NCBI GenBank assembly: GCA_001915545.1
Contig: MNQS01000201.1
Span: forward strand, 1-15,213
DNA: 15,213 nt
Direction of reading: 5' to 3'
Source: Bacteroides sp. 43_108
Lineage (GTDB): Bacteria; Bacteroidota; Bacteroidia; Bacteroidales; Bacteroidaceae
In this document: piece by piece, positions 8,279-15,213 of the stretch
Layout: every line of letters starts with the position of its first letter
Position numbering within the stretch: position 1 is the first letter of the stretch
Made by a program: the position numbers and the translations under genes
Notes under the pieces: model-generated
Database searches by the model: none
What the model was told of the DNA's origin: nothing
What the model saw: only the letters and a program-made list of their open reading frames with translations

Positions 8279-8292
8279 TTTTTTTTTTTTTT
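8279..8292. repeat. T14 homopolymer upstream of the glycosyltransferase
   Basis: Fourteen consecutive T residues end 16 nt before the -7 box at 8309-8316, where a -33 element would lie. Length change here could alter promoter spacing. Confidence 0.7.
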
Positions 8293-8308
8293 GAATAATA
8301 TTTTATGC

Positions 8309-8316
8309 TACATTTG
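8309..8316 (+). promoter_or_regulatory. Candidate -7 box (TACATTTG) for the peptide cluster
   Basis: TACATTTG matches TAnnTTTG, 56 nt before the preferred ATG at 8373. The only nearby TTTG (8290-8293) ends the T14 tract and gives a short 15-nt gap. This is the best promoter candidate for the whole rightward cluster. Confidence 0.5.
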
Positions 8317-8372: not shown

Positions 8373-9440
8373 ATGAAAATATGCCTTGTCAATTGCATTT
8401 CATTGGTCAGATTTGATGAAACTTCGCTTGAATACGGTGTTGGTGGTGCACAAACATATTTGATTTGTCTGTCTGAGTCATTGGCATCCGTTGGGCACGA
8501 TGTTACAGTTGTATGCCAATGCGAATCTGAACATGTTGCCCAGGGTGTGAAATGGATACCCATAGAGCATGTTTTTTATGCGAATGAGGATAGAAGTCTT
8601 TCTGTATTCGCGTCATTTAATTTTGAGGTTGCTATAGTTTCACGGCCGTCAATAGAATATTTAAGGACAATAGTCAGTTCGGGAGTTGATTTATATGTTG
8701 TGTTTCATGGTTTGGATGAAGGTCTATGCAACGGAGGCATAGAAATACTTGATTCTCCAAATGTGCGCAGGGTTGTGGCTCTTACCAGTTGGCATGCAGA
8801 ATATTTGAAACATGACATGGGTCTAGATCCTGCAAGGATTTCTGTTGTTCCAAATGGAATACGTCCTGAAGATTACGATGTTGCGGACGATGTTCATCCT
8901 GTAGACCATTCAATACTTTGGAGCAGTGAACCCAGACGCGGACTTGGTATAATGTGTACATTGGCAAAAGAGGTAAGGAAAAGCATTCGGGATTTCTGCA
9001 TATATGTCTCGACCCCATCTTACTGTTGTCATCTTCCTGAAAATAAAGATTATAAATACCTTGGACATTTGTCAAAAAGAAGACTGTATCGGGAAATGCG
9101 CAGACATGCGGTATGGTTCTATCCATCGGTGTATAAAGAAACATTCTGCATAACAGCTCTGGAAGCATCAATGTCCGGCAATATGCCTGTTCTGCCTGTC
9201 AGGTATGGCCCTACGGATATTTTTGGTCCTTTTGCAGATGAAATCGGAATGAAAAATGATTTTGATGGTGATTTCCAGAATGCATGCATGGAGGCTTCTG
9301 AACTTATATGCAGAAATATACTGGATTATGATATGCCGGTAAAGAGAAAACTTCGGAGAGATCTGCAACGTTACATATTGAATAATTTTACGTGGAGCCA
9401 TGTTGCATCTATGTATTCAAATCTTTTTATGGGGGAATGA
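8373..9440 (+). CDS. Glycosyltransferase, GT4-like, of a GG-leader peptide cluster
   Basis: ATG 8373 begins MKICLVNCISLV, the usual first strand of a GT-B fold, giving 355 residues; the longer frame starts with GTG at 8364. Near the N-terminus GVGGAQTYLICLSESLASVG matches the donor-side GGxE-type loop of group 1 glycosyltransferases. ISVVPNGI marks the domain linker, and ETFCITALEASMSG carries the E-x7-E motif (Glu256 and Glu264) that contacts the nucleotide sugar. No signal peptide is present, so it is cytoplasmic. It leads a rightward cluster with a GG-leader peptide gene. A glycosyltransferase family tied to GG-Bacteroidales peptide systems is known (TIGR04157, from memory); membership is inferred from context. 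The acceptor is unknown and could be the precursor peptide or another cell component. Confidence 0.85.
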   Translation: MKICLVNCISLVRFDETSLEYGVGGAQTYLICLSESLASVGHDVTVVCQCESEHVAQGVKWIPIEHVFYANEDRSLSVFASFNFEVAIVSRPSIEYLRTIVSSGVDLYVVFHGLDEGLCNGGIEILDSPNVRRVVALTSWHAEYLKHDMGLDPARISVVPNGIRPEDYDVADDVHPVDHSILWSSEPRRGLGIMCTLAKEVRKSIRDFCIYVSTPSYCCHLPENKDYKYLGHLSKRRLYREMRRHAVWFYPSVYKETFCITALEASMSGNMPVLPVRYGPTDIFGPFADEIGMKNDFDGDFQNACMEASELICRNILDYDMPVKRKLRRDLQRYILNNFTWSHVASMYSNLFMGE

Positions 9441-9467
9441 TTTATAATAAACCTGGGAAATAATACT

Positions 9468-9857
9468 ATGATAAACATAATAGACTGTTTCTTAAAAGAA
9501 TTGGAAGTAGAACATACTGTCGGCTATACAAAAGAATTGTATGAACATCATCCATATAAGAACAACTTTTATGGATTGAGCCTGATTTTGTCGGAATATT
9601 CACTGAAAACATATGGGATAAAGATAGATTCGAAGAATTTGTCACAGTTGTCATTTCCCTGCATTCTTCATATCGGAAATGATTTTGTTGTTGCAAGAGC
9701 ATTGCAGGATAAAATACTGGAGTTTTGGGAACATGACAGGCTGAAAAAGTCTTCAGTAGAAGAGGTGGAAGAAAGATGGGATGGATGTGCACTGGTGGCC
9801 GAATATTCAGAGGATGCATCAGAGGCAGATTACCATGCTCATAAAAAAATGAGATAA
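9468..9857 (+). CDS. C39-peptidase-like domain, N-terminal part of a frameshifted C39/VKOR/thioredoxin protein
   Basis: This 129-residue frame starts 27 nt after the glycosyltransferase. It resembles the C39-like domain found at the N-terminus of Bacteroidetes VKOR-thioredoxin fusions. The helix that should hold the catalytic Cys reads KNNFYGLSLILSEYSL, with no Cys in the DCG position, and the strand that should carry the catalytic His reads HIGNDFVVARAL, with Asp where HFVV would be expected. It should therefore be proteolytically dead and at most bind the double-glycine leader. The frame ends soon after an A7 run (9843-9849). Adding one A joins it to the next frame as HKKNEIIGY and gives one 514-residue protein. 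Whether the split is real, programmed or a sequencing error cannot be told here. Confidence 0.65.
   Translation: MINIIDCFLKELEVEHTVGYTKELYEHHPYKNNFYGLSLILSEYSLKTYGIKIDSKNLSQLSFPCILHIGNDFVVARALQDKILEFWEHDRLKKSSVEEVEERWDGCALVAEYSEDASEADYHAHKKMR
9843..9849 (+). other. A7 homopolymer at the frameshift point
   Basis: The upstream frame reads CAT AAA AAA ATG AGA TAA and stops. One extra A gives CAT AAA AAA AAT GAG ATA and continues openly into a membrane helix (YLSYFFVLAVMLYGIMKL) and the VKOR frame. The total from 9468 to 11011 is then 1545 nt, exactly 515 codons. Confidence 0.8.
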
Positions 9858-9904
9858 TCGGGTATATTAAGACATATTTATCATATTTCTTTGTTCTGGC
9901 TGTT

Positions 9905-11011
9905 ATGCTTTATGGCATCATGAAGCTCCAGATATATAATGACATTGGATTGCTGGTATCCCTGATTATGAGTGTTTTAGGTTTTATGCTATGTGTAATG
10001 CTGTTGAAGAAGCAGATGCACATGAGTACTCGTGCAGGTGACACGGTGTGTTCTGCATTTGGAGATGGCGATTGCGGAAAACTACTTCGTACAGACGCTG
10101 CTAAGGTTTGTGGAGATTTCAGCTGGAGTGAGGTCGGTTTTGCATATTTTATATCCTATATAGCATTTGTTTTTTTCTACGGGCGGTGTACGTTGCTGTA
10201 CATTCTGAATGGCTTTGCAGTTGTATTCAGCATATGGAGCATATGGTATCAGCTGTTTCATGCAAAGCAGAAGTGCGTTCTTTGTCTGTGTGTGCAAGGG
10301 ATGGTTATGGCTGGTGCCGCGTCTTTGTTCCTGACGGCCGAAGCTTTTTCATTGTCCGGAATCATATTTGAGCAGATGCTGTTATGGTTTTGCATATTTA
10401 CTCTTATTGTCATTGTAGTCAATAAATTATCCATTCTTATATCAGATAAAGTACTGGATGATAATAAAGACGAATCCGAGAACGCCATAAAATATGATGA
10501 GAATGTTTTCAGGTTCCTGCTTAAAAGACAGCCTCACTATGATGTTTCAGATGAAGATGCCGCTTTATGTTTCGGCAACCGCGATTCCTCGTTGCAGGTG
10601 ACTGTGCTGTCGAACCCTCATTGTAATCCGTGTGCATTGATGCATGCAAGGCTTAGGAAATTATTGTCGCGTGCCTGTGGAGATATTTGTGTTCAGTATA
10701 TATTATCATACTTCTCAAATATAGAGAGTAATAAGGTGCTGATTGCCGCTTATGTTCATAACGACCGTAAAACTGCAGAGGCCATCTATGATGATTGGTT
10801 TGATAAAGGCAGGGTACGCCCTAAGAAATTTATGCAGGACAATGGATTGGATATAAATGGCCCTGCTGTAGAAGATATTTTTGCAAGACATGAGCATTGG
10901 AGAAGAAAGACTGATTTACATGCAACTCCGACAGTGCTTGTAAATGGTTATCTTTTGCCGAAACAATATAAGGTTGAAGATCTTATATATTTCAAGGATA
11001 TGAAAATCTGA
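9905..11011 (+). CDS. VKOR family protein fused to thioredoxin/DsbA-like domain
   Basis: As an independent frame it gives 368 residues, but the open frame extends upstream without stop to the A7 run, supplying the first membrane helix. The N-terminal half is a vitamin K epoxide reductase (VKOR) domain: membrane helices, loop cysteines VCSAFGDGDC (Cys49, Cys57) and the active pair CVLC (Cys124, Cys127). From about residue 215 a thioredoxin-fold domain carries NPHCNPC (Cys240, Cys243) and the cis-proline loop ATPTVLVNG (Thr341-Pro342). Bacterial VKOR-thioredoxin fusions pass electrons from periplasmic thiols to quinones and so form disulfides. Beside a six-cysteine precursor, its likely substrate is that peptide. 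Here the C39-like N-terminal domain lies in another frame, so a stand-alone product may lack proper membrane topology. Confidence 0.85.
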   Translation: MLYGIMKLQIYNDIGLLVSLIMSVLGFMLCVMLLKKQMHMSTRAGDTVCSAFGDGDCGKLLRTDAAKVCGDFSWSEVGFAYFISYIAFVFFYGRCTLLYILNGFAVVFSIWSIWYQLFHAKQKCVLCLCVQGMVMAGAASLFLTAEAFSLSGIIFEQMLLWFCIFTLIVIVVNKLSILISDKVLDDNKDESENAIKYDENVFRFLLKRQPHYDVSDEDAALCFGNRDSSLQVTVLSNPHCNPCALMHARLRKLLSRACGDICVQYILSYFSNIESNKVLIAAYVHNDRKTAEAIYDDWFDKGRVRPKKFMQDNGLDINGPAVEDIFARHEHWRRKTDLHATPTVLVNGYLLPKQYKVEDLIYFKDMKI

Positions 11012-11048
11012 AGTCATTTATTATGGCATACGTCTGTTGGAAATGACT
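11012..11048 (+). repeat. 8-bp stem hairpin between the VKOR gene and the precursor gene
   Basis: AGTCATTT (11012-11019), immediately after the stop codon, pairs with AAATGACT (11041-11048) over a 21-nt loop. No T-tract follows. It may mark an RNA processing site ahead of the precursor gene. Confidence 0.4.
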
Positions 11049-11094
11049 GTAAGAGTGATAATTAATAGTAGTATTAACTTAAAAATCAACAGCG

Positions 11095-11358
11095 ATGAAA
11101 AAATTGAAACCATTGAAGGTTTATGACCCGGAATCAGTGATGAGTTCTGAAGAAATGAAGAAAATCCTTGGTGGAGGATATGGTGACAAAGGATACCTTT
11201 CATGTACATGTCAGTGTATATACTCGATCGGTGTGTGGCAAGAGTATACATCGTCAGGCTATTGTCCTCACCCTATCAACAAGCGATTTATGTCTGATAA
11301 TTGTGGTCCGGGTTCCTCTGGAAGCACAGAGACTCCGGGATTGGCAATTTGTCAGTAG
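11095..11358 (+). CDS. Double-glycine-leader precursor peptide with six-cysteine core
   Basis: The 87-residue product has a typical GG leader of the Bacteroidales natural-product precursor type (TIGR04149, from memory): MKKLKPLKVY, then SSEEMKKILGG, with Gly26-Gly27-Gly28 at the expected cut site. Cleavage after Gly27 would release a 60-residue core. All six cysteines (37, 39, 41, 57, 70, 86) lie in the core and none in the leader, including the tight cluster CTCQC. The core also has many Ser, Thr, Gly and Tyr residues (GPGSSGSTETPG), which could take dehydration, glycosylation or crosslinks. The gene follows the VKOR-thioredoxin gene by 83 nt and precedes a hairpin. Its final structure and activity are unknown. 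Alternatives are a bacteriocin, a signalling peptide, or a secreted disulfide-bonded peptide without other changes. Confidence 0.8.
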   Translation: MKKLKPLKVYDPESVMSSEEMKKILGGGYGDKGYLSCTCQCIYSIGVWQEYTSSGYCPHPINKRFMSDNCGPGSSGSTETPGLAICQ

Positions 11359-11391
11359 TTATTGTGGTGCAAGACTTTGACATTTTGCGGT

Positions 11392-11419
11392 TTTCTTGCC
11401 GGTTTATGCCGGCAAGAAA
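11392..11419 (+). terminator. 11-bp hairpin between precursor and downstream genes
   Basis: TTTCTTGCCGG (11392-11402) pairs perfectly with CCGGCAAGAAA (11409-11419) around a 6-nt loop. It starts 34 nt after the precursor stop. The following bases (gcattaatattttg) are AT-rich but not a true T-tract, so partial termination or mRNA stabilisation fits better than full termination. Confidence 0.6.
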
Positions 11420-11448
11420 GCATTAATATTTTGTTGAACTTAAAACTA

Positions 11449-12276
11449 ATGACTATGATTGGAAAAATTGTTTTGTTGTTTGTATTGCTGTTTTCGGCAC
11501 ACCCTTTTTTGTCTGCGCAGGATAGTAACAGCCCTTATATGGTTCTTGATACTGCCAGATATGTAGTCCGGTACGGGTTTAAATACATGGCAGACACTGT
11601 GAACAGGAAAATGATGGAAGGAGAGACCGTGCTTGAAATAGGAAAACATGTGTCAAGGCATTGCTTTAGGGGTCATGATGAGAGCGAACTAAGCTATCTG
11701 GAGCGCTCCAGCTGGGATGCAGAACCTAAGTTCCGTTTTCCGTCTTATGATCCGGCGATAGATAATGTATATATAGGTTATCCAAAGAAGAATAGGATGA
11801 CAGCTGCAATGAATCTGGGATGTGTCGGCGGTTTTCTTTACGAGGAAGATGTCCCTAAGCAGGATTGGACATTATCGGATCAGACCAAGGTGGTCGGCGG
11901 TCATGAGTGTCGCATGGCTTCGTGCGATTTCGGTGGACGCAGGTACGAGGCGTGGTATGCAGCAGATATACCGATGTCTCTGGGACCGTGGAAACTGGGA
12001 GGTCTGCCAGGGCTTATTCTTGAGGCTTCTGATTCTTCGGGTGAATTTGTTTTTACGCTGAATGCAATTGAATCAGCTTCTGATTCAGTTGTACCGATAA
12101 CCATGCTCAAGCGCAAGTACCGTAAGATGAGCCGTAAGAAATGTTTCAGCTATAGAGCGAGAATGTATCGCGAACCGGCGACATTCTATTCGGCCCTCGG
12201 CGTTCTTCCAAATGGCATGCGCATAGTAACTCCAAAGGGAGGGTATCCGTACAATCCAATAGAGAAGGAAGATTGA
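11449..12276 (+). CDS. GLPGLI family secreted protein
   Basis: The name motif GGLPGLILEASDSSGEF is present in the C-terminal half, as expected for this Bacteroidetes family (Porph_ging, TIGR01200-type). I place the start at ATG 11449, giving 275 residues, since the next residues IGKIVLLFVLLFSAHPFLSAQ form a signal peptide; the longer frame from 11362 would run through the upstream hairpin. ATG 11455 is also possible. Before the name motif are EAWYAADIPMSLGPWKLGGL and conserved hydrophobic strands. The molecular role of the family is not established; members often sit beside outer-membrane beta-barrel proteins, as here (next gene 84 nt on). Location should be periplasmic or outer membrane. In this cluster it may help export or handling of the mature peptide, which is inference from position. 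Confidence 0.88.
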   Translation: MTMIGKIVLLFVLLFSAHPFLSAQDSNSPYMVLDTARYVVRYGFKYMADTVNRKMMEGETVLEIGKHVSRHCFRGHDESELSYLERSSWDAEPKFRFPSYDPAIDNVYIGYPKKNRMTAAMNLGCVGGFLYEEDVPKQDWTLSDQTKVVGGHECRMASCDFGGRRYEAWYAADIPMSLGPWKLGGLPGLILEASDSSGEFVFTLNAIESASDSVVPITMLKRKYRKMSRKKCFSYRARMYREPATFYSALGVLPNGMRIVTPKGGYPYNPIEKED

Positions 12277-12360
12277 AGTACTGTATTGCGGGCTTTAAGC
12301 TTGTTGCGTGGTTGTAGTGATAGATGTCAAGGGATGGAAATCAAATATTAACGGGCTGAT

Positions 12361-15006
12361 ATGGGGACATTGACGAAAGCGGTTTTATTTGCGGTTATTG
12401 TGCTGTTTCCTGGCATGATGAACGCGCAGTCGTTGATAAGCGGTTGTGTGAAGAACGGTTCGGGCGAATCGGTTGAAGGTGCGATAGTGACATTGTTCAG
12501 CCTGCCGGACAGCAGTATCTTGTCATACCAGATTACGGGTGTTGACGGGAAGTTCACGGTCAGCTCCGGAGACAGCACATCCGATAGTTTGATGGTCAGA
12601 TTGAGCGGATTCAATATAAAGACTAAGGCTAAGACTGTTCAGAACAAGTCTCAGAATATGGACCTTGTAGCGGTAGAAGATATTCTGGAACTGAAGGAAG
12701 TCTTGGTGAAGGCTGAAAAGATATGGGGCGACAAGGATACGCTGAATTATCTTGTGGCTTCGTTCCTGACCAACCGCGATGTATCGATAGGCGATGTACT
12801 GAAGAGGCTGCCCGGAATATCCGTGTCGGAAGACGGGATGATAAGCTACAACGGAATACCTATAAATAAGTTCTACATAGAGAATCTGGATGTGCTTCAG
12901 GGACGGTACAACATCGCAACGGAAGGAATATCGGCAAAGGATGTATCGACGGTACAGGTGCTCGAACATCACCAGCCGATAAAGGCTCTGCAGAAGGACT
13001 CACGTCCTGAGCAAGCCGCAATCAATCTGCAGCTCAAAGACAACAAGAAGGGTACGTGGCTGCGTTCGGCTGAGCTCGGTCTTGGATTCAGCGATGAACT
13101 GCTTTGGAAAAATTCCATTTCGCTGATGTATTTCGGAAGGAAGTCGCAGCATGTCCTGACCTACGACAATGCGAACAACGGCTCGCAGATAACGAGGAAG
13201 GCCCATTCGTTCTACGGCGGAGGCGGTGGAGGCGGACAACGCTTCACGGGCATATCAGGCGCCTCCAGAGCACCGTTCGACCCGGAGTACACTCTATACA
13301 ATAATGCACACGTGCTGACTTTAAACAATCTGCAGAAGTTCTCGGATACGGATGTGCTGCATTATAATCTTGTATATTCGCATGACAGAACAAAGACTCA
13401 CAGTTCATCACGTACTGTTTATTCGCTTCCCGACGGAGGGACGGCAGAATCAGCGGAGGATAAGTACAGCCGTGAGACAACGGACAATCTGTCGCTCGAA
13501 CTTGATTATGAAAGCAATAGACCGCATGACTATCTGTCAAATACACTTTCGTTTTCTGGAAATTGGCGCGAGTCGTTCGGAACGATTGAGATTGGTGAAG
13601 GCGAGACTGTCGAGCAGCGTTCTCCATGGCGTTCTCTGGTGGTGTCGGACGAATTCAGCATTATCCACACCAATGAAGACGGCAAGGGGTATAGTCTGAG
13701 TGCACGATTGTCTTACAACACATCCCCTCATTCGCTGACAGTGTCGCCCGGAGTGTTCCCTGATGTCCTCAACATGGGAGATGAGTACGGAAGTGTGCGC
13801 CAAGATATGAGGGTGAGATCATTGAAAGGCGGTGTCGGTACGTCGCTGCTGTCCGCCGTGAAGATAGGCCGCTTTTCGATGTCGCCTTCATTGAATGTAA
13901 ATATAGAGCATGTGCATATGCATTCGGACATATCGGTGGATGGAACTGAGCTTACGGCCGACAGCATGAGGAATGCTGAGACATGGTTGAGGCTTGATGC
14001 CGATGCTGGCCTGAATTTCAATTATGAAGTGCGCAATCTTAAGATAGAGCTGGGTGTTCCGGTCAAATATATGATGACACGGCTCGGCAACGCCGGATTC
14101 GACGATGAGACACGGCATAAGGTGCTGTTCAGTCCGAATGTGAATATAAAATACATAGTGTTCCAAGGATTTGAACTGAAGGCTTCTGGAAGAATGAACA
14201 CTGGTACACCGTCTTGGAACTCCATGTATTCCGGGTTTATTCTGGGCAGCTACAACAGCTTGAGGCGGAACCAGCCGCAGTTCTACGATATTACTTCTTA
14301 TCAAGGGACGTTTTCCACGTCGTACAGGAATGTCCTCAATATGCTGTTTGCAAGTGTGAATGTGCATTTTTCAAGGTCGGACAATGAAGTAATGAACAGC
14401 ATGTACATAAATCCAGATGCATCGATTGTCAGCACCAGAATATTTATGGACAACCACAGTACATCATACGGAGTGAGCGGTGAGTTCAGCAAGGCATTCT
14501 TCTGGTGCAATGCTTCTATGAAATTAAGCGGCGGATGGAACCGGGGATTCAACTGCAGCCTGCGGCAGAATGAGCTTATGAAAAATGTATGGGACAACGG
14601 ATATGCCGGAATTGAATTCAGTATGAAGCCTGCAAAGCGTCTGTATACTGCTGTTTATGCAAATTATTCGTGCTCAAGGTCGAGGGTTGAGAGAGTGAGG
14701 ACGTATCCGGCGGTGCACCGTCTTAACGGAAGCATTGAAGCTTCGTTCGATATAACAGATGAATTTTATGTAGGGGCGAAATTCAGGCACAGGTACAACA
14801 GTGCAGTTGATGGCGACAGGAATTTCTCATTGCTCGACATGAATGTCGTATATAAGCTGAAGAAGGTGCGTTTCTCGCTTGATGTGTACAATCTGCTCAA
14901 CAAGAAGAAATATGTGGTGCGTTCGTACTCCAATCTTGATGAATACTATTCAGAATATGACATACGTCCAAGGTCGTTCATGCTGACGGCAAAGTTTAAT
15001 TTTTAA
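12361..15006 (+). CDS. Outer-membrane beta-barrel protein with CarboxypepD_reg-like domain (TonB-receptor-like)
   Basis: The 881-residue product begins with a signal peptide (MGTLTKAVLFAVIVLFPGMM, then NAQ). Residues about 25-105 form a carboxypeptidase-regulatory-like beta sandwich (ISGCVKNGSGESVEGAIVTL). A plug-like region follows: SIGDVLKRLPGISVSEDGMI and NGIPINKFYIENLDVLQGRY. From about residue 230 come many alternating beta strands of a large barrel, ending in MLTAKFNF with the C-terminal phenylalanine typical of outer-membrane proteins. I see no clear TonB box, so TonB dependence is uncertain; the OMP_b-brl_3 type is a good match. A Gly-rich stretch (YGGGGGGGQRF) sits near residue 285-295. 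It lies directly after the GLPGLI gene and 10 nt before the LanC-like fragment, so the three look co-transcribed. It could pass peptide or a precursor across the outer membrane. Confidence 0.88.
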   Translation: MGTLTKAVLFAVIVLFPGMMNAQSLISGCVKNGSGESVEGAIVTLFSLPDSSILSYQITGVDGKFTVSSGDSTSDSLMVRLSGFNIKTKAKTVQNKSQNMDLVAVEDILELKEVLVKAEKIWGDKDTLNYLVASFLTNRDVSIGDVLKRLPGISVSEDGMISYNGIPINKFYIENLDVLQGRYNIATEGISAKDVSTVQVLEHHQPIKALQKDSRPEQAAINLQLKDNKKGTWLRSAELGLGFSDELLWKNSISLMYFGRKSQHVLTYDNANNGSQITRKAHSFYGGGGGGGQRFTGISGASRAPFDPEYTLYNNAHVLTLNNLQKFSDTDVLHYNLVYSHDRTKTHSSSRTVYSLPDGGTAESAEDKYSRETTDNLSLELDYESNRPHDYLSNTLSFSGNWRESFGTIEIGEGETVEQRSPWRSLVVSDEFSIIHTNEDGKGYSLSARLSYNTSPHSLTVSPGVFPDVLNMGDEYGSVRQDMRVRSLKGGVGTSLLSAVKIGRFSMSPSLNVNIEHVHMHSDISVDGTELTADSMRNAETWLRLDADAGLNFNYEVRNLKIELGVPVKYMMTRLGNAGFDDETRHKVLFSPNVNIKYIVFQGFELKASGRMNTGTPSWNSMYSGFILGSYNSLRRNQPQFYDITSYQGTFSTSYRNVLNMLFASVNVHFSRSDNEVMNSMYINPDASIVSTRIFMDNHSTSYGVSGEFSKAFFWCNASMKLSGGWNRGFNCSLRQNELMKNVWDNGYAGIEFSMKPAKRLYTAVYANYSCSRSRVERVRTYPAVHRLNGSIEASFDITDEFYVGAKFRHRYNSAVDGDRNFSLLDMNVVYKLKKVRFSLDVYNLLNKKKYVVRSYSNLDEYYSEYDIRPRSFMLTAKFNF

Positions 15007-15016
15007 AAGTAACGAA

Positions 15017-15121
15017 ATGATGAATTTTGACAAGAATGTTAAGGATATGATACTGGCATCGAATGACATGGGGCTATTTTCGGGCAAGACAGGAGCCTGC
15101 ATATATTCGTATAGTAATTAG
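15017..15121 (+). pseudogene. Truncated start of a LanC-like (lanthionine synthetase C) gene
   Basis: Two adjacent ATG codons (15017 and 15020), 10 nt after the barrel gene, open a 34-codon frame: MMNFDKNVKDMI, then ASNDMGLFSGKTGACIYSYS and a stop at 15119-15121. The segment DMGLFSGKTGACIYSY resembles the first repeat of Bacteroidetes LanC-like proteins, where a GL-x-GK-x-G-x-A-x-Y/F-type motif opens the alpha-toroid. A full LanC-like protein has roughly 400 residues, so this is only the beginning. The frame stops just where sequence like an insertion-sequence end begins. The zinc-binding Cys and His residues would lie in the missing part. With so little sequence the family call is tentative. 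Confidence 0.45.
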
Positions 15122-15213
15122 GGTGTCCAGTTTAACGTTCCCAATTTAGCCTACATTTTTAAGCTGTTTGGTACGTTCTGTAACCCAGTTTATGGACATG
15201 TGCTTCTTTGCAA
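15121..15213. mobile_element. End of an insertion sequence (runs off the window)
   Basis: At about 15121 the reading frame of the upstream gene stops and sequence beginning GGGTGTCCAGTTTAACG starts. That looks like a terminal inverted repeat. A minus-strand frame consistent with a transposase C-terminus begins 25 nt inside. The other end and any target duplication are beyond the window, so the boundary is approximate and the family is not assigned. Confidence 0.5.
15146..15213 (-). CDS. C-terminal tail of a probable transposase (partial)
   Basis: On the minus strand an open frame enters from the right edge and ends at a TAA at 15146-15148; its last residues read AKKHMSINWVTERTKQLKNV followed by Gly. 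Only 21 complete codons are visible. The basic, helix-like tail and its position just inside an apparent terminal repeat suggest the transposase of the element, but no catalytic motif is in view. Confidence 0.35.
   Translation of the reverse strand, partial: AKKHMSINWVTERTKQLKNVG

Follow-up and report, generated by a model that had tools for sequence, protein, structure and literature searches.

Organization of the locus

The DNA analyzed here, referred to below as the window, comprises positions 1 to 15,213 of contig MNQS01000201.1 (assembly GCA_001915545.1) from Bacteroides sp. 43_108. It contains a compact unit of seven open reading frames (ORFs), all oriented rightward between positions 8373 and 15121 and separated, in this order, by gaps of 27, 47, 83, 90, 84 and 10 bp. 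In the middle of this unit, the coding sequence of an oxidase composed of a C39-like domain, a VKOR domain and a thioredoxin domain is followed by the gene of a small precursor peptide with six cysteines in its core. A rightward gene set with short gaps had already been described in an original prediction, made without database searches. This gene set is real: the gaps are all shorter than 100 bp, and both the gene content and the coordinates check out. The genes located upstream of the unit (P-II, ammonium transporter, GH115 and AraC) look unrelated to it. At its other end, the peptide cluster is truncated by the right edge of the window (15213).

The oxidase is encoded on the forward strand by two ORFs. 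The first one (9468-9857) corresponds to the C39-like N-terminal domain (PF03412, 32.9 bits for a cut-off of 22), at the end of which the frame breaks, and the second one (9905-11011) to the VKOR domain and a DsbA-like thioredoxin (PF07884, 43.5 bits; PF13462, 26.4 bits), with the motifs CxxC and CNPC. The break is located at an A-run (9830-9910) between the C39-like and VKOR parts. The C39-like/VKOR/CNPC fusion had been predicted as a single protein; all its domains are there, but the window copy consists of two ORFs, and an intact fusion of 514 aa is found in the homolog P0001, identical to the window protein over the VKOR-thioredoxin part. The oxidase of one related locus (L002) is likewise split, C39 and VKOR being two ORFs.

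The precursor gene (11095-11358, forward strand) was correctly recognized by the original prediction as that of a GG-leader, cysteine-rich peptide, since it reaches 29.6 bits against TIGR04149 (cut-off 25) and its core contains six cysteines. The GG leader has a length of 27 aa (11095-11175, forward strand) and scores 27.7 bits against a leader hidden Markov model (HMM) of which it is itself a training sequence. The translated core, with its six cysteines after the GG, has a length of 60 aa (11176-11358, forward strand). A precursor search returned one homolog only, P0121, which is 99% identical; relatives of the precursor share its leader, but not its core.

Pairing of the oxidase with six-cysteine precursors

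The pairing of the oxidase with a six-cysteine precursor, which was absent from the original prediction, is the core of the cluster. The loci sampled were the window, all nine plasmid records matching the oxidase, and the IMG/VR contig L004, which carries the single oxidase locus found among viral contigs; scans of genome contigs came back empty, and a phage collection gave no match to P0001. A search of 26 records and contigs detected PF07884 in L004 and in eight of the matching plasmid records, which together carry nine such genes; the remaining 17 have none. Of the oxidase, the ninth plasmid record, L008, retains just a thioredoxin remnant, and it yielded no precursor. The C39-VKOR-thioredoxin fusion and six-cysteine GG peptides are paired at all the Bacteroidota loci examined: within about 2 kb of every one of the 11 VKOR genes, counting that of the window, lies at least one GG-leader ORF whose core contains six cysteines. 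The number of cysteines played no part in the selection of these ORFs, and 14 of the 15 GG-leader ORFs at VKOR loci have six of them in the core. The precursor of L002, whose leader has no in-frame ATG, is recognized by TIGR04149.

As a control, the same leader HMM was applied to 13 Bacteroidota exporter loci devoid of VKOR, out of 14 such loci among the 60 exporter matches listed (H57 was left out). It detected 23 GG-leader ORFs, distributed over eight of the 13 loci, and none of them has six cysteines. Six cysteines are also absent from the 40 annotated small ORFs of the control loci, some of which are not precursors. The Fisher exact test gives 1.6e-9 by ORF, tandem precursor ORFs not being statistically independent, and 1.3e-5 when the 11/11 VKOR genes are compared with 0/8 loci. 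Several points temper this result. The sole exception among the 15 ORFs, located in L009, has four cysteines. Because its training set consisted of leaders from VKOR loci, the leader HMM has a better recall there, and the control loci are the best-scoring among the exporter matches listed. Moreover, the control ORFs with low scores possibly include some that are not genuine precursors.

A profile built from 14 precursors returned 39 further rows besides P0121, with six core cysteines in 26 of them, seven in 7, four in 4 and eight in 2; cores with seven or four cysteines thus also occur. These rows are not used as proof because cysteines are part of the profile, and four of the rows, P0122-P0125, repeat its inputs. 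The precursors may represent a little-studied family of three-disulfide peptides, possibly oxidized before export. Among open-license papers, a search for VKOR together with peptide, C39 or LanC returned nothing on this gene pairing.

A hairpin with a 14-bp stem is located directly 3' of the precursor gene (11390-11421, forward strand). Its z-score of -6.5 was not reached by any of 100 shuffles, and the five remaining gaps tested in the unit contain no such hairpin. Hairpins with a z-score of -4 or lower follow the last six-cysteine precursor in eight of the 11 VKOR units (all except L004, L010 and L011), that is, 8 of the 15 precursor ORFs. This element is possibly an attenuator giving more precursor than enzyme mRNA, or an mRNA stabilizer. 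In Aureibacter (L013, 7456-8180), two near-duplicate six-cysteine precursors lie in tandem, with a strong hairpin after the second only.

Neighboring genes

The first gene of the unit (8373-9440, forward strand) encodes a GT4-type glycosyltransferase (PF13439, 4e-13; PF13579) without any TIGR04157 match in a profile search. Three genes, also on the forward strand, follow the precursor. They encode a GLPGLI family secreted protein (11449-12276; TIGR01200, 8e-42; PF09697; PF22252), a carboxypeptidase-like or barrel outer-membrane protein (12361-15006) with only sub-threshold matches to CarboxypepD_reg and TonB-receptor models, and the first 34 aa of a truncated LanC-like protein (15017-15121). 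The plasmid relatives of the barrel protein are annotated as carboxypeptidase-like or TonB-dependent receptor, and the L004 barrel protein matches it over 135 aa (2e-8). The LanC-like ORF has no Pfam match by itself and was recognized by its alignment to the N-termini of the LanC-like proteins of L001, L002 and L004, which is equalled by 1, 4 and 1 of 1000 shuffles, respectively. Four LanC proteins from other clusters were compared in the same manner: two give similar alignments (4 and 10 of 1000 shuffles) and the other two do not.

Among the other VKOR loci, L001, L002 and L004 resemble the window in combining the oxidase with glycosyltransferase and LanC-like genes, and L012 contains glycosyltransferases without any annotated LanC-like gene. 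The gene order in L004 is oxidase, LanC-like, GT4, precursor, barrel, GT2, peptidase-containing ABC transporter (PCAT) and HlyD. This locus comprises five of the six window families in a different order, and none of the loci examined besides the window has all six. The co-occurrence of the six families in conserved order, as originally envisaged, holds for the oxidase and the precursor, holds in part for the glycosyltransferase and the LanC-like protein, and fails for the order and for GLPGLI. The glycosyltransferase of L004 resembles TIGR04157 (287 bits, under the cut-off of 400 for that model). A close kinship between the window glycosyltransferase and the GT4 enzyme of L004 was rejected (E 0.14).

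A PCAT exporter is present within the fetched stretch at seven of the nine other VKOR loci (L001, L009-L013, and L004, where it was identified by alignment), and the L014 record contains a PCAT match at a distance of about 5 kb. HlyD-type adaptors are annotated in L010-L013, and one was recognized in L004 by visual inspection. TlpA-like or DUF4369 oxidoreductases, possibly a second thiol enzyme for proofreading, are encoded at L001, L009, L010 and L011.

The original prediction placed all these genes in one RiPP-like pathway (ribosomally synthesized and post-translationally modified peptide), with handling of the peptide at the outer membrane. A peptide with dedicated oxidation is well borne out by the 11/11 VKOR genes, mostly accompanied by a PCAT. 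The outer-membrane part is weak because the GLPGLI and barrel pair also occurs without VKOR in two Bacteroidales loci, L005 and L006, which makes this pair a recruited module at best. It is even a serious possibility, somewhat short of an even chance, that a disulfide peptide is indeed produced while GLPGLI and the barrel form an envelope module of their own, simply adjacent to its genes. The annotations of the other VKOR loci include no GLPGLI protein, and visual inspection of L004 did not reveal one. Such a separation is nevertheless at odds with the position of the two genes on the same strand, with gaps of 84-90 bp within the unit, and with the presence of a barrel gene after the precursor in L004 and before the PCAT genes in L017 and L019, both devoid of VKOR.

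In Prevotella nigrescens (L005, 9962-13436), the GLPGLI and barrel pair is found near conjugative transfer genes, and in L006 (7087-10487) beside a two-component system. No GG-leader ORF was found in either stretch.

Architecture and orientation of the oxidase

The assignment of the oxidase to the VKOR family is based on its PF07884 domain, in which the two loop cysteines and the CxxC motif are present. The catalytic cysteines of the VKOR-thioredoxin part are invariant across 48 aligned sequences. In a structure model of P0001, the VKOR core fold matches that of the Synechococcus VKOR and the thioredoxin fold is closest to the periplasmic proteins ScsC and DsbA. The Synechococcus VKOR-thioredoxin protein (PDB 4nv5, 3kp9) thus shares with this oxidase the core fold, the active-site cysteines and the fused thioredoxin, but it lacks the N-terminal C39-like domain and the additional helix, and, in the loop stretches compared, its charge bias is opposite.

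The C39-like domain has the fold of the C39 peptidases, as in a leader-binding peptidase. However, the catalytic cysteine and histidine of C39, present in five of five PCATs, are missing in all the 113 full-length homologs. The C39-like domain of type I exporters such as HlyB (CLD) is likewise a degenerate C39 fold, and degenerate C39 domains serve substrate recruitment in these exporters (PMC6363468). The domain of the window differs from the HlyB CLD in being fused to an oxidase and not to an ABC transporter, and in having lost both the cysteine and the histidine.

In the structure model, the VKOR core comes after an extra hydrophobic helix (122-153). For the best 19-residue segment of this helix, the hydropathy reaches 1.6 or more in 46 of the 48 database sequences and in all 11 of a second alignment, P0001 and P0002 belonging to both. 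Six helices separate the C39 domain from the thioredoxin, so that both end up on the membrane face that carries the VKOR catalytic loops. The density of lysine and arginine per residue is 0.140 in the loops of this catalytic face and 0.023 on the opposite face, and the excess is found in all the sequences of both alignments (48/48 and 11/11). In four loop stretches of the Synechococcus VKOR, this bias is reversed, with 3 lysines or arginines in 41 residues on the catalytic face and 5 in 26 on the other. The first 48 residues do not contain on average a signal-like stretch (mean best 14-residue hydropathy 0.97, highest 1.69), nor is a clear signal stretch found ahead of the 120-residue N-terminal domain. 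Given this charge bias and the lack of a clear signal stretch, the positive-inside rule predicts that the C39 domain, the VKOR active site and the thioredoxin should all face the cytoplasm.

A tentative reading of these data is that the fusion acts as an inverted, cytoplasm-facing oxidase, whose dead protease domain would dock the GG leader while three disulfides are built before export. A VKOR serving a second compartment has a precedent in the archaeon Aeropyrum pernix, whose VKOR was reportedly located to two compartments by Hibender in 2017, one facing the cytoplasm; that protein is not known to have a leader-binding domain. Several points argue against an inverted orientation. The loops were picked by hand from the model, and the control consists of a single VKOR of known orientation, that of Synechococcus, whose short loops were compared. 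The second and third transmembrane helices are only moderately hydrophobic, a hydropathy of 1.6 being reached in 24/48 and 21/48 sequences, and the thioredoxin domain resembles periplasmic proteins. Finally, the TlpA-like oxidoreductases encoded in L001, L009, L010 and L011 are probably periplasmic.

The last two observations would suit an oxidase in the ordinary VKOR orientation, with a periplasmic active site and thioredoxin oxidizing the peptide after its export and the removal of its leader; characterized bacterial VKORs are indeed periplasmic. The C39-like domain would then be periplasmic too, or bind something else. This alternative appears rather unlikely in view of the lysine and arginine enrichment on the catalytic face, which is the reverse of that in the Synechococcus loops, and of the N-terminal residues, on average without signal-like stretch. 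A leader-binding fold would, in addition, have no obvious use once the leader is removed.

Proposed maturation pathway

The operon probably makes, oxidizes and exports a small three-disulfide peptide, the export genes being lost at the right edge, and the glycosyltransferase and the LanC-like protein would modify this peptide. Its starting point can be read directly from the translation, namely a precursor in which a GG leader of 27 aa is followed by a six-cysteine core of 60 aa. The leader would be held by the peptidase-dead C39-like domain of the oxidase. The DsbA-like domain would then oxidize the core cysteines pairwise, and the electrons would pass via VKOR to quinone; this chemistry is that of the VKOR and DsbA families, and the membrane side is deduced from charge. 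With the active sites turned toward the cytoplasm, the disulfides would form before the removal of the leader. The glycosyltransferase and the LanC-like protein could install a further modification and, by comparison with the related loci, a PCAT exporter assisted by an HlyD-type adaptor would cleave the leader and secrete the product, most likely an interbacterial or signaling peptide. Three facts are unfavorable to this pathway: the window oxidase may be inactive or mis-assembled because its reading frame is broken, no exporter is found in the window, where the cluster is cut off, and no PCAT is annotated in the stretch of L002.

The product could also be a glycosylated disulfide peptide, with the glycosyltransferase acting on the core. 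In glycocins, a dedicated glycosyltransferase places a sugar on a cysteine or serine of a disulfide peptide, and these systems combine a GG leader, a C39 exporter, thiol oxidoreductases and a glycosyltransferase. A Gram-negative counterpart of this kind would account for the glycosyltransferase genes of the window, L001, L002, L004 and L012. It remains doubtful, since the enzyme types vary (GT4, GT2, GT7C-like and MGT-like) and the annotations of L009-L011, L013 and L014 mention no glycosyltransferase.

The conversion of the cysteines into thioethers, giving a lanthipeptide- or radical S-adenosylmethionine (SAM)-type product with an incidental oxidase, is unlikely: TIGR04149 is named for peptides modified by radical SAM enzymes, LanC-like genes are present and L011 encodes a thiopeptide-type protein, but the scan of the window genes found neither LanB/LanM nor radical SAM proteins, the annotations of L001, L002, L009, L010, L012 and L013 include none, and six loci without LanC keep the six-cysteine pattern. 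The protein of L011 (Emticicia, 1397-2017) is annotated as a thiopeptide-type bacteriocin biosynthesis protein, and its gene lies some 3.4 kb before the VKOR gene, with an opposite-strand gene between them. The CHG motif, which stands for the zinc ligands of LanC (C-gap-CH), is a weak test of this chemistry. It is missing in the LanC-like proteins of L001, L002 and L004, the window copy being too short to judge, and it is present in one of four LanC proteins from the LanB clusters L016 and L023. As the other three also lack it, its loss is compatible with LanC activity, and the missing zinc motif was dropped as an argument against a classical lanthipeptide. The Spirosoma plasmid locus L016 (2111-16272) encodes an outer-membrane barrel together with LanB, two LanC proteins, of which one contains FCHG, and six proteins annotated as lanthipeptide precursors.

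If correct, the proposed pathway would represent a new RiPP-style maturation, the leader-dependent installation of disulfides, spread over Bacteroidota. Its peptides would associate a shared leader with a hypervariable core and a nearly fixed number of cysteines, in the manner of animal toxin or defensin families. A dedicated oxidase recognizing the leader would explain multi-disulfide secreted peptides in bacteria such as Bacteroides, said to be devoid of a general disulfide machinery (PMC6671954), and cytoplasmic, leader-guided disulfide formation becomes directly testable. The pairing also provides a rule for genome mining, in which a C39-VKOR-thioredoxin gene is located and then a nearby six-cysteine GG-leader ORF; it can find cores that are too variable to be detected by similarity.

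Relation to described systems

The nearest described systems are the bacteroidetocins and the radical SAM/LanC clusters of Bacteroidales. Bacteroidetocins (class IIf bacteriocins) are also GG-leader cysteine peptides of Bacteroidetes, located beside thiol oxidoreductase genes thought to form their disulfides, and Bacteroides are said to lack a general disulfide machinery (PMC6671954). They have four cysteines and a leader of 15-16 aa in that same source, whereas the window precursor has six cysteines and a 27-aa leader, and does not correspond to the bacteroidetocin definition given there. The terms 'VKOR', 'thioredoxin' and 'C39' do not appear in the main text of PMC6671954.

The Bacteroidales RiPP clusters of Fernandez-Cantos et al. 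2023 (PMC10352776) share with the window a GG leader, LanC-like proteins, glycosyltransferases and PCAT export. Their LanC-like proteins occur without LanB and have no zinc motif, and eight of nine clusters contain a radical SAM enzyme; the main text of that paper contains none of the terms 'vitamin K', 'thioredoxin', 'GLPGLI' or 'TIGR04149'. The leader of the window precursor exceeds the curated cut-off for TIGR04149 GG peptides. The window may nevertheless differ from the TIGR04149/TIGR04157 systems in that no radical SAM gene is found among its scanned genes, in a cluster cut at 15213, or annotated in L001 and L009-L013. One Parabacteroides locus (L015, 1-10196), cut at the start of its record, encodes a pseudo-radical SAM protein, a TIGR04157 glycosyltransferase, three beta-propellers and a PCAT.

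Borders of the unit

An insertion had been predicted at the right end of the window. The LanC-like frame does end abruptly there (15119-15213), and an insertion element and an assembly edge are both possible. The terminal bases gave no match in the plasmid collection, and a 29-base pattern taken from this end is absent from the viral contigs; a proven insertion sequence at this edge was consequently dropped. In Hymenobacter (L014, 1-12006), the VKOR locus lies between IS3 and IS110 transposase genes, which suggests mobility or decay of the cluster.

Rfam elements were not detected in the window at gathering score, and sigma-70-like promoter and terminator-like sites are no commoner in it than in shuffles. 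Just upstream of the glycosyltransferase gene (8279-8316), a run of 14 T ending in TTTG is located 15 bp before TACATTTG. This site resembles a Bacteroides-type promoter, and its homopolymer could presumably vary in length.
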